Shown here one piece after another: positions 1 through 24,064 of a DNA stretch of 64,000 nt. Below the pieces are notes generated by a model. It worked only from the letters and a program-made list of their open reading frames with translations. It was not told the DNA's origin and searched no databases. Made by a program: the position numbers and the translations under genes. Source of the stretch: Thiopseudomonas sp. (GTDB taxonomy: Bacteria; Pseudomonadota; Gammaproteobacteria; Pseudomonadales; Pseudomonadaceae); NCBI GenBank assembly GCA_018384595.1, contig JAHAYO010000043.1, positions 1-64,000 on the forward strand, read 5' to 3'. Numbering within the stretch: the stretch's first letter is position 1; each line of letters begins with the position of its first letter.

Positions 1-147
1 GCCGCAGCACAGACCTTGACCGGCCAGCTACCTACCTACGCGCAACACATCAACAGCAGCCACAGGTATACAGACCTGATTGCTGGGTTACCGCCATAGA
101 ACGGCTTGAGCGAGAGCCCGACTCAGCCCGCCGCCCACTCAGAAAAA

Positions 148-16172: not shown

Positions 16173-17042
16173 TCAACGCGTGGACGCGGACGGCTCGACC
16201 TCCTCGTGCTGCAGGCGTAGTTCTTCGTACTCGGCCTGCATGGCCAGCACGGAGCCTTCCGGTGCCACCGAGGTTTCGCCCGCTTCCCAGGGGGCTGATT
16301 CGGGCAACTCCTCGATGTGGATGGTTTTCAGGCTGTAGTCGGGCTGGTAATGCAGGTCGTATTTGGCCGCTTTGATGGTAGAAATCATCAGCAGCACCAT
16401 GATCACGAGCAGCGGTGCGCCGGCAAAGATGGACGCGGTTTGTAGCGTGGACAGCCCGCCCAGAAACATCAGCACCGCCGGCATGATGCACAAGGTAAAT
16501 GCCCAGAACAGCCGGTTCCAGCGGTGCGGCTCGTCGTCTACTTCGCGCTGCACCACCGAGGCCAGAATGTAAGAGATCGAGTCGAAGGTGGTGGCGGTAA
16601 AGATCACTGCCAGCAGGGTAAACAGTGCCATCATCAGCCAGCTCATGGGCAGGGTGCCCAGCACGGCAAAAATGGCCGCCGTGGGGCTTTGTTCGTTGAG
16701 CACCGCCACCACATCCAGCTCGCCGCTCAGCTGCAAGTGCAGGCCGTAGTTGCCCAGAATGATGAAAAACACCGCGCAGCCCAGCAAGCCGAAAAAAATC
16801 GACCCCACCACCATTTCACGAATGGTGCGCCGGCGTGAAATTTTGGCAATAAACAGTCCTACCGTTGGTGCAAAGACCAGCCACCAGGCCCAGTAGAAAC
16901 TTGTCCAGTCGGCTGGGAAACTGGTGGCCTCGAAACCGTATTCGCTAAATGATCCCAGTGACTCGGTCCAGGTCATCATGGTGAACATCTGCGTCAGCGA
17001 GCGGCCCAAACTTTCCAGCCCCGTATTAAGGATAAACAGGCC
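16173..17042 (-). pseudogene. 5'-truncated BCCT-family (betaine/choline/carnitine) transporter, C-terminal half only
   Basis: TSFYWAWWLVFAPTVGLFIAKISRRRTIREMVVG and DSISYILASVVQRE BCCT motifs; about 300 aa versus 500+ aa expected; homology stops near 17040 and is replaced by unrelated MDCSAFLKVPILPQC. Confidence 0.8.
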
Positions 17043-17136: not shown

Positions 17137-19032
17137 TTGCCGGGGCGTGCTGGTGACGCGGCCGTGAGCACTGTTTTCCTGAATGTGACCTACGCTGAAA
17201 AAGACAGCGTGAAGGCGTTGGGTGCGCGCTGGAATGTGCAGCTGCGTAAATGGTATGTGCCCGAGGGTACCGAGCTGGCCCCCTTTGCCCGCTGGCTGCC
17301 GGATGGCCTCATCCCCGATGCGCAGGTGCTAGCGGCCACGGCGGAAAACAGCGGCCCCTACGAGGTGGCCGGCATTACCGGTGTGCCGCTGTCGCAGCTG
17401 CTGGGCCGCGTGCGCGGACTGGTGCAGCAGGCGTTTGGCCAAGCGGTATGGACGCTGGTGGATGTGTCGGGCGTGCAGGCGCGCAACGGCCATGTTTATC
17501 TGGAGCTGGCCGAGCGCGACGGCACCGGTGCTGTGCTGGCGCAGGCACGCGGCATCATCTGGGCGGCGCGGGCCGCGCAATTACTGCCTGAGTTTAATCG
17601 CGCCACCGGCATTGAAGTCGCCGCCGGCATCAAACTGTTGGTACGCGCGCGTCCGGTGTTTCATGAACGTTTTGGTTTGAGTCTGGAGATTGATGCGATC
17701 GACCCAGACTACAGCCTCGGTGATCTGGAAGCGCGCAAAAAACAGATTCGTCTGCGTCTGCAACAGGAAGGCGTGTTTACCGCCAATCAGCAGTTACCCG
17801 CGCCTTGGGATTTCAACCATGTACTGGTGCTGTCGCCAGAGCAGGCCGCTGGGCTGGGCGACTTTCGCGCCGAGGCGCAGCGTCTGCAGCACTACGGGCT
17901 GTGCCGTTTTACCTATGTGCACAGTCGTTTTCAGGGTGAGGGGGTAGGCAGCGAGTTGGCCACAGCGTTGCGGGCGGGACTGCAGACCTGCCGCGATGCC
18001 GGTGTCCAGCCGGATGCCGTCGTCATTATTCGTGGTGGCGGGGCAGTCAATGATCTGGCTTGGCTCAACGATTACGAACTGGCCCACGCCATTTGCACGC
18101 TGGGCATTCCGGTATTGACCGGTATCGGTCACGAGCGCGACAGCACCTTGCCGGACGAAGTAGCGCATAGCCGCTTTGACACGCCAAGCAAGGTGATTGC
18201 CGGCATTGAACAGCGGATTGTGCAACGGGCGCGTGAAGCCCGCGATGCCTTCACGCAGACACGCACCCAGGCCATGCAGGCGCTGCAACACAGGCGTCTG
18301 CAGCTGGAGCAACAGCATACGCAGGTGCAACAGGGCGCACAGCGCGTGCTGGCCGAGGCACGGCAGCATAGCGGCCAGTGGTTTGCTGATGTGCGCCTGA
18401 GCGCGTTGGGTCAGGTGCAACAGGCGCGGCGTAGCAGCCAGGGCTATATGGAACAGGCGCGCGCTCAAGCGCAGCAGCAACTCAATGTGGCCCACGGTCA
18501 GGTGCCGATGCTGTTGGCTCAAATTCGCAGCCGCGCCGAGGCGATGCTGGCCGCAGCACGGGCGGGATCGCGCTTGCAGCTGCAGGCCATTGTCGGCCAG
18601 AGTCGCAGCGAGCTGGTTCATGGCCGCCAGCAGGTGCAGGAACAGCTGTCTGCTGTGCGCCACGCAGCCGACCGCCAGCTGCAAACCGCACGCCAGCAGA
18701 GCCATACTCGGCTGGAACAGGTGTTGCAGTTAGGCCGCCAGCACAGCCAGACCTGCAGCGCGCAGATTCATCACGATCTGGACAGTATTCGCCATGAAGC
18801 ACGGCGCAGTTTGGGCCAAGCCCGCCTGCACAGCATGGCGCTGTTTCGTGAAATTGCCGGACAGGGACCGGACAAAACCCTCAGCCGGGGCTTTGCCCTG
18901 ATACGCAATCCGCAAGGCCAGCCGGTCAGCTCCGTCAGCGCGCTGCAACCCGGCCAGCTATTGGACATTGAATTTAAAGACGGCCGCTTCGACGCGCAGG
19001 TGGTCGCCATCAAGGGAGCAATCACCCCATGA
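17137..19032 (+). CDS. DUF5710-like domain + divergent exonuclease VII large subunit-like protein with extended helical region
   Basis: N-term VFLNVTYAEKDSVKALGARWNVQLRKWYVPEGTELAPFARWL; XseA core VVIIRGGGAVNDLAWLNDYELAHAICTLGIPVLTGIGHERDSTLPDEVAHSRFDTPSKV; Gln/Arg/Ala-rich helical C-terminus; TTG start (alternative GTG 17164). Confidence 0.85.
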   Translation: MPGRAGDAAVSTVFLNVTYAEKDSVKALGARWNVQLRKWYVPEGTELAPFARWLPDGLIPDAQVLAATAENSGPYEVAGITGVPLSQLLGRVRGLVQQAFGQAVWTLVDVSGVQARNGHVYLELAERDGTGAVLAQARGIIWAARAAQLLPEFNRATGIEVAAGIKLLVRARPVFHERFGLSLEIDAIDPDYSLGDLEARKKQIRLRLQQEGVFTANQQLPAPWDFNHVLVLSPEQAAGLGDFRAEAQRLQHYGLCRFTYVHSRFQGEGVGSELATALRAGLQTCRDAGVQPDAVVIIRGGGAVNDLAWLNDYELAHAICTLGIPVLTGIGHERDSTLPDEVAHSRFDTPSKVIAGIEQRIVQRAREARDAFTQTRTQAMQALQHRRLQLEQQHTQVQQGAQRVLAEARQHSGQWFADVRLSALGQVQQARRSSQGYMEQARAQAQQQLNVAHGQVPMLLAQIRSRAEAMLAAARAGSRLQLQAIVGQSRSELVHGRQQVQEQLSAVRHAADRQLQTARQQSHTRLEQVLQLGRQHSQTCSAQIHHDLDSIRHEARRSLGQARLHSMALFREIAGQGPDKTLSRGFALIRNPQGQPVSSVSALQPGQLLDIEFKDGRFDAQVVAIKGAITP

Positions 19033-19286
19033 CTCACACCAGTTTCAAACAGGCTTACCACACCCTGCAGCAGCACGCCGAAACCCTGCGCAATCAGCAG
19101 GAACCCAACATTGACGACCTGCTGACGCTGGTCACCGAGTCGGTCACTGCTTACAACGTCTGCAAAGAGCGCATCGACGCGGTAGAAAAAGCCATGGAGC
19201 AGGCGCTGAGCGGCGCAGTGGCCGCTGAAGTTCCGTCTTTCGCCCCCCCGCTGGGGGACGATGACGAGTGGGACAGCCCCTTTTAG
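19029..19286 (+). CDS. exonuclease VII small subunit-like protein with acidic C-terminal tail
   Basis: [56 protein letters not shown] aligns with XseB pattern; ATGA overlap with upstream gene; ends ...[10 protein letters not shown]. Confidence 0.75.
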
Positions 19287-22732: not shown

Positions 22733-24064
22733 ATGCAGGCAGGTTTTACAGGATTACGCATCCGCTATCAGTACATTGTGCTCGCGGCTTTGCTGGGACT
22801 GACGTTGCACGCGCATGCGCTGGAGCTGACCCTCAAGGGCTCCAACACCATCGGGGCGCTGCTCGCGCCGCGGCTGGCAGAAGGCATGCTCAAGGCGTCC
22901 GGCGCGCGCGATATTCGTGTGCAACTTCATTCTGACGGACGCGAGCACTTGATTAGCGCGACCAGCGCCGAAGGCGAACCCATCACCATACGTATCAGTG
23001 CTCAGGGTTCAAGCACCGGCTTTAGCGGGCTGCTTGACCGCAGTGGCCAGATTGCCCTCGCCTCGCGCCCAATCCGCACCGACGAAGTGCAGGCGCTGGC
23101 TGCGGCTGGCGACCTGCGCAGTCTGCAGGCTGAGCAGGTGATTGGCTTGGACGGGCTGGCGGTTATTGTGCACCCAGACAATCCGCTTGGCGCACTTAGC
23201 GTAGAGCAGCTGGCTGCGATTTTTTCCGGACAAATCAATCGCTGGGAGCAACTGGGCGAGCACAGGGGAGCTATCCGGCTGTATGCCCGTGACAGTCAGT
23301 CTGGTACCTGGGAAACCTTTCGGGATCTGGTGCTGGCCCCGGTACAGCGCGAATTACACGCATCGGCTTACCGTTACTCGTCCAATGCCGCGCTGTCACG
23401 GGATGTCAGTTTTGACGTCAATGGTATCGGCTTTGTGGGCCTCGATAGCATTGGGCGTGCACGGGCGCTGGCCTTGTCCGCCGGCCAGTCGCGGCCCATG
23501 CTGCCCAGCCAGAAACAGGTAGCCACCGAGGATTACCCGCTGGCCCGCCGCCTGTATTTGTACCAGCGTCCCGACGAGCAAAATCCGCTGGCGCAGGCCC
23601 TGATCGACTTTACCCAGAGCCATGCCGGCCAGCAGCTGGTCAGCCAGGTCGGCTTTGTCGGCCAGAACATCGAAGCTGGGCAGGAAGAGGCGCGCAGCGA
23701 TATGCCGGAGGCTTACCGCACCCTGGCGCAGGAGGCGCGTCGGCTGTCGGTCAACTTTCGTTTTGAGGAAGGACTGGCCCGGCTCGACAACAAGGCCATG
23801 CAAGACATCAAACGCCTGGCCGCCTACCTGCGCGAGCATGACAAGACGGACAACAGTGTTGTGCTGGTGGGCTTCAGCGATCCAAGGCGCAGCAACGCCG
23901 GCCTGCTGTCCCGCCTGCGAGCCATGATTGTGCGCACGGAACTGGCCAGGCACGACATCATCATCAGGGATGTGCTGGGCGTGGGTGACCAGCTGCCGGT
24001 CGCCACCAACTCGGGTCTGGAAGGGCGCTACAAAAACCGTCGGGTAGAGGTGTGGGTGTATTAG
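22733..24064 (+). CDS. PstS-like periplasmic binding protein fused to OmpA-like C-terminal domain
   Basis: N-term LTLKGSNTIGALLAPRLAEG ... GLDGLAVIVHPDNPLGALSVEQLAAIFSGQINRWEQLG; C-term VNFRFEEGLARLDNKAMQDIKRLAAYL...GFSDPRRSNAGLLSRLRA...RYKNRRVEVWVY. Confidence 0.85.
   Translation: MQAGFTGLRIRYQYIVLAALLGLTLHAHALELTLKGSNTIGALLAPRLAEGMLKASGARDIRVQLHSDGREHLISATSAEGEPITIRISAQGSSTGFSGLLDRSGQIALASRPIRTDEVQALAAAGDLRSLQAEQVIGLDGLAVIVHPDNPLGALSVEQLAAIFSGQINRWEQLGEHRGAIRLYARDSQSGTWETFRDLVLAPVQRELHASAYRYSSNAALSRDVSFDVNGIGFVGLDSIGRARALALSAGQSRPMLPSQKQVATEDYPLARRLYLYQRPDEQNPLAQALIDFTQSHAGQQLVSQVGFVGQNIEAGQEEARSDMPEAYRTLAQEARRLSVNFRFEEGLARLDNKAMQDIKRLAAYLREHDKTDNSVVLVGFSDPRRSNAGLLSRLRAMIVRTELARHDIIIRDVLGVGDQLPVATNSGLEGRYKNRRVEVWVY

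Follow-up and report, generated by a model that had tools for sequence, protein, structure and literature searches.

A mobile-type, DUF5710-bearing exonuclease VII with a long helical arm probably stands in for the housekeeping enzyme of a Thiopseudomonas genome

Introduction

Is the exonuclease VII (ExoVII) encoded at this locus the housekeeping enzyme of its genome, an additional paralog, or a version of a different kind that has taken its place? The pair of genes in question lies in the window analyzed here, which is the whole stretch of 64,000 nucleotides from a Thiopseudomonas contig (called C104 below), and a reading of the sequence alone had already singled it out. What ExoVII does in the cell, and why it has a large arm coated with XseB, are so far poorly understood.

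Results

The large subunit is read from positions 17137-19032 of the forward strand. The sequence-only reading gave its length as 631 aa, and an open reading frame of that size does exist if the TTG at 17137 is used, but alignment with relatives (which begin M-S-A-T-Y-L-D-V-P-F...) points to the GTG at 17164 (M/V-S-T-V-F-L...) as the likely start, which makes a length of 622 aa (17164-19032) the more probable one. It belongs to the XseA family, with 240.8 bits against TIGR00237 xseA where the cutoff is 180, and its domains follow the order of ExoVII, namely an OB fold, a catalytic core, a coiled-coil arm, and a C-terminal beta element, with DUF5710 placed in front of them.

The DUF5710 domain, which had been proposed for the N-terminus, is borne out by Pfam and by the model (17173-17301; PF18974 at residues 13-55, E 9e-18, 64.1 bits against a gathering threshold of 26.5), and a genome search found it to be the sole DUF5710 in its own genome. 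It is followed by a tRNA_anti_2 OB-fold DNA-binding domain (17389-17700; Pfam residues 85-188, E 3e-11, with strands at model residues 95-180) and by an Exonuc_VII_L match (Pfam residues 213-476, E 4e-54). Within the catalytic core (17773-18186), D233, R290, H323, and D326 (622-aa numbering) align with D155, R205, H238, and D241 of the E. coli protein, which are reportedly the catalytic positions (Poleszak 2012), and all four are invariant in the 12 aligned rows of the DUF5710 group. The core signature of this clade reads GLGDF / RGGGAVNDLAWLND / GIGHERD....DEVA...FDTPSKV. The family scores, together with the separate clade described below, bear out the suspicion of a core that is of ExoVII type but divergent.

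An AlphaFold model, built from nine own and related rows without plasmid rows, has a single strong fold match, the E. coli ExoVII structure in which H238A is named (PDB 8TXR, E 1.7e-22; the next match is at 1e-3). In this model DUF5710 is a small beta-alpha-beta-beta-alpha unit (pLDDT 75-89), the arm (18187-18876) is a near-continuous helix at residues 341-564, predicted with low confidence (pLDDT 44-62), and the C-terminal beta element (TLSRGFALIRN..., 18877-19029), also placed by alignment, comes after it.

The small subunit (19029-19286, forward strand, 85 aa) overlaps xseA by ATGA at 19029-19032, as had been noticed from the letters, and this overlap would couple the synthesis of the two proteins. 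It is indeed XseB-like, but of the mobile type, reaching 103 bits against NCBIfam NF045605 'xseB_Acin_var' (cutoff 40) and staying below the canonical cutoffs of TIGR01280 (28 bits, cutoff 35) and PF02609 (22 bits, cutoff 24).

The C-terminus of this XseB (region 19200-19286) is DDDEWDSPF. Bacterial SSB has the tip DDDIPF, the Ile of which is missing from the window tail. Acidic ends closing in ...DDIPF occur in the DUF5710 group on the XseBs of seven loci (L034, L035, L038, L039, L043, L107, and L109), variant ends are ENDIPF at L037 and DDDxPPF at L040 and L041, and the XseBs of L108 and L110 are without an SSB-tail-like end. Canonical XseBs of the sister species G001-G003 also look like the SSB tip (SDDIPF, DDDIPF, and SGDIPF); with one other they make up the 4 of 36 canonical XseBs examined that end in this way. 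A PF end was found on three of the 610 longest open reading frames in all loci collected, one of the three being such an XseB. We hypothesize that the XseB tails mimic the SSB tail, in many copies per ExoVII: disordered, acidic, and closed by Pro-Phe, they would present SSB-tail-like peptides and thereby recruit SSB-binding repair proteins. Separately, a hypothetical protein near a mobile xseA on a Vibrio vulnificus plasmid (L156, 8252-8956) ends in KDDIPF.

To place the large subunit we used a maximum-likelihood tree of 39 XseAs, made of 15 canonical rows (two species of the same genus included) and 24 mobile-type rows. The canonical proteins split from all others with a support of 100/100, and the window protein lies apart from the canonical XseA of its relatives; whether it would cluster within housekeeping XseA, a point that the sequence-only reading had raised, is thus settled by a place outside. 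It belongs instead to a single clade of 12 DUF5710-XseAs (100/100) within the mobile-type rows. The neighbors of this clade are Acinetobacter plasmid XseAs and that of Moraxella phage Mcat6, then plasmid XseAs of Pseudomonas, Burkholderia, Vibrio, and Aeromonas; the depth of the mobile-type branching is uncertain because the branches are long. The other DUF5710-XseAs come from Burkholderiales, among them Polaromonas (pPNAP03 and P1-6), four Variovorax replicons, Caballeronia, Acidovorax, and Hydrogenophaga. Elsewhere than in this genome, the branch is carried for the most part by plasmids and genomic islands. On the plasmid of Polaromonas sp. P1-6 (L164, 5001-10064) the DUF5710-XseA gene is split by an insertion of ~3 kb, with xseB downstream.

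A draw of 399 genomes across the phylum returned DUF5710-XseA once, from its own genome. A search of IMG/VR with the full XseA protein gave no relative, and a literature search on DUF5710 found only the Rep_3-DUF5710 plasmid replication proteins. Since the window copy branches first in the DUF5710 clade, a single old transfer is plausible on the shape of the tree, perhaps into the host lineage.

A mis-binned or contaminating contig would also be expected to bring a gene whose relatives are Burkholderiales and whose intact fusion occurs in none of 298 further genomes from the host family. The rest of the contig, however, belongs to the host genus, as indicated by the identity of its tsf (94%) and mtaD (81%) to sister species G002; phoBR is 85% identical at the DNA level to sister genomes, and both flanks match. 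Contamination is very improbable on this evidence, and we rejected it. A truncated DUF5710-XseA remnant was seen in a member of another genus of the family (G143, contig C101, ~31.2-31.7 kb, L080/L133).

The module itself sits among pst/phoBR, the remnant of a BCCT transporter, mtaD, and thrS, a housekeeping neighborhood. Its left junction is at 17041, where the homology of the BCCT remnant (C-terminal half, 16173-17041, reverse strand) to sister species G003 stops, and on the right the stop codons of xseB and mtaD overlap. Around the module no integrase or target repeats were seen, only short repeats at chance level, and neither a sigma-70-like promoter nor a terminator was found for it. In its codon usage the module does not stand out as recently transferred, the GC3 of xseA (0.70) being within the range of its neighbors. 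Further along the window, 22733-24064 encodes a 443-aa protein with a PstS-like phosphate-binding part and an OmpA-like C-terminus.

What has become of the canonical pair is answered by the rest of the assembly, which comprises 2.25 Mb in 124 contigs and is 90.7% complete. HMM searches of the whole assembly found one xseA and one xseB, both within the window; the canonical genes, absent from this assembly, are present in 57 of 57 relatives. In sister species G002 the order is ispA-xseB-ppa (ispA, ppa, hrpA, mscS, and rpsB are named here from their translations), whereas contig C91 of the own genome has ispA and ppa adjacent in unbroken sequence with the xseB segment missing, which demonstrates at the level of gene order that canonical xseB has been lost between them. 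Canonical xseA in three sister species adjoins mscS and has rpsB-tsf on its other side. In the own genome hrpA precedes mscS on contig C16, and rpsB-tsf begins contig C104. The ends of these two contigs share an exact overlap of 15 bases that falls within an inverted repeat; the most likely order is therefore rpsB-hrpA-mscS, where the sister species have rpsB-xseA-mscS. We regard the loss of canonical xseA as likely, on grounds that include this 15-base contig overlap in a genome that is 90.7% complete. The inverted repeat at the two contig ends has the form GGCCGGTCAAGGTCTGTGC ... GCACAGACCTTGACCGGCC (window 1-25; L119 1-80).

With the canonical pair apparently lost at two unlinked loci, the mobile-type pair is left as the sole ExoVII of the genome, and the module has replaced that pair instead of joining it as a paralog. 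The sequence-only reading had proposed that it may be a specialised paralog, distinct from the housekeeping enzyme, and had suggested a search for a second, canonical pair, holding that the absence of any other xseA would make this gene simply the local housekeeping version. There is no second xseA or xseB, so the paralog falls; the distinction from housekeeping XseA stands, on the 100/100 separation of the mobile branch. An accessory paralog would still be in place if the canonical genes had been missed in an incomplete assembly, an idea that gains from the number of contigs and from the presence of canonical xseA in 6 of the 11 genomes that carry the DUF5710 form. Yet the contig that would hold canonical xseB runs without a break from ispA to ppa and does not contain it, the sequence on the mscS side of the xseA locus is likewise continuous and carries hrpA, and neither canonical gene turned up in the whole-assembly HMM searches; we leave this explanation a slim chance.

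A sole XseA in a housekeeping neighborhood might suggest a housekeeping XseA that diverged and grew in place. Against this are the tree, in which even the canonical XseAs of sister species are separated from it at 100/100, the position of the gene away from the rpsB-xseA-mscS locus of the genus, the mobile-type XseB partner, and DUF5710. Divergence in place is extremely improbable, and we rejected it on tree and synteny.

The replacement enzyme carries an arm of 230 residues. Autocorrelation of the arm (BLOSUM) peaks at lags of 11, 22, 33, 44, and 55 (z 5.0-7.6; none of 2000 shuffles reached the observed value at any of these lags), and its hydrophobic residues recur with a period of 3.66, or 11/3, as in a hendecad coil. 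The "loosely repeated blocks" that had been described in the helical extension are thus part of a long repeated arm, as claimed, but the repeats are regular rather than loose. Written in 22-mers (double hendecads), the arm has ten units, and its length equals 10 + 10 x 22.

We measured arm lengths between the anchors GHExD...TP and TLxRGY/F, excluding 7 open reading frames in which no C-terminal anchor was recognizable; a few of the counted arms come from partly cut loci. This gave 64 distinct arms. Most of them belong to Pseudomonadota; Fusobacteriota, a Bacteroidota plasmid, and a phage contribute one row each. A length of 10+22n holds exactly in 54 of the 64, and the rest depart from it by between -2 and +3 residues; the arms are related in part (29 are canonical rows with n = 6) and do not amount to 64 independent events, and the other values of n come from several lineages. 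Over canonical and mobile XseAs n runs from 4 to 10, the window protein at n = 10 being the longest among the 64, and the E. coli arm of ~144 residues corresponds to n = 6. Insertions and deletions in the alignment follow the same steps, with a difference of exactly 44 residues between the window and most relatives and of exactly 22 more for L040 and L041.

E. coli ExoVII reportedly has six XseB per XseA. The PDB entry 8TXR contains 4 XseA and 16 XseB chains, and some XseB may be unmodelled. If one XseB is bound per 22-mer of the hendecad arm, n = 10 predicts about ten XseB per XseA here, against six in E. coli.

Discussion

The window pair is an ExoVII of the mobile type that carries DUF5710, has become domesticated, and has the longest arm among those measured. 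Read from its genes and their relatives, it is probably a working ExoVII-type ssDNA nuclease from a mobile clade and fills the place of a housekeeping ExoVII that has been lost. It provides a case in which a core DNA-repair enzyme appears to have been displaced by a plasmid-type version, with a possible SSB-tail mimic on the small subunit.

We infer both the role of DUF5710 and the physiological role of the pair. Carried on a flexible linker beside the OB fold, DUF5710 would add a DNA- or protein-binding contact. XseA would pair through its arm and C-terminal element, as in E. coli ExoVII, and each 22-residue unit of the arm would hold about one XseB, so that the spindle would be longer, its active sites lying at the center. 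If so, XseB copy number and spindle length would evolve in whole steps. We tentatively go further and suggest that ExoVII is a modular ruler, with one XseB per 22-residue unit (n = 4 to 10), and that the mobile DUF5710 versions, with their long arm and SSB-tail-like XseB ends, might compete, as an array, with SSB for partners and be able to permanently replace the host enzyme; this is a speculative picture that we hold to be possible rather than probable. A literature search found nothing on ExoVII with hendecads or SSB tails, and earlier notice of the arm periodicity is possible. The 10+22n rule nevertheless offers a handle on the XseB-coated arm, in that natural proteins of 4 to 10 units predict 4 to 10 XseB per XseA.

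The mobile setting of the relatives raises the question of whether the module is a component of anti-phage or anti-plasmid defense, carried as mobile defense cargo, and not a repair enzyme. DUF5710-XseAB adjoins Zorya II ZorA-ZorB-ZorE at L039, is near Gabija GajAB at L036 and near BilD and a JetD-like gene at L109, and shares a plasmid with Lamassu LmuB at L107; Wadjet-like genes lie beside the G143 remnant. However, other copies are surrounded by ordinary chromosomal genes or plasmid backbone (L037, L040, and L041, and in the wider clade IncP-7 pCAR1), the only constant partner gene of xseA in the relatives is xseB, and the window neighbors phoBR, mtaD, and thrS are all housekeeping genes. 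Nothing in the window assigns the module to a known defense system, defense neighbors being confined to some of the relatives, and a literature search found no paper linking ExoVII to defense. We consider a defense role unlikely, and a repair-type nuclease that has replaced the housekeeping ExoVII is the reading that we retain.

Two of these surroundings deserve description in their own right. The truncated remnant in G143 lies between an McrC-like gene and a set that looks Wadjet-like by eye, in an apparent defense island. On conjugative plasmids of Caballeronia/Burkholderia (L154 and L155), an xseA without DUF5710 is followed by xseB and then directly by a gene for a 5'-3' exonuclease (H3TH).

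Comparison with known systems

The window enzyme shares with E. coli ExoVII (8TXR; TIGR00237/TIGR01280) the OB fold, the D/R/H/D core, the helical arm, the C-terminal beta element, and a small subunit. It differs in the additional N-terminal DUF5710, in an arm of 230 rather than 144 residues, and in the core, which reads GIGHERD...DEVA...DTPSKV where canonical ExoVII has AVGHETD...DFVAD.RAPTP. Its XseB falls below the canonical cutoff, and its xseB is coupled to xseA, whereas canonical xseB is located at ispA.

The plasmid and phage XseAs of Acinetobacter, Pseudomonas (IncP-7 pCAR1), Burkholderia, Vibrio, and Moraxella phage Mcat6 resemble it in belonging to the same wider clade, in the core signature, in a related small subunit (NF045605), and in the coupled pair, but they are without DUF5710 and have shorter arms (n = 4-6, with one n = 9). 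The DUF5710-XseAs of Burkholderiales (for example pPNAP03 WP_011798313.1, Variovorax WP_068675160.1, and Caballeronia) have the same architecture and type of XseB and are 45-53% identical. All of these are annotated as ordinary xseA, a name under which current annotation hides such variants. Their arms have n = 7 or 8 (one, truncated-looking, has n = 4) against n = 10 in the window, and they often accompany a canonical gene as an additional copy, whereas the window pair is the only ExoVII that its genome was found to encode.
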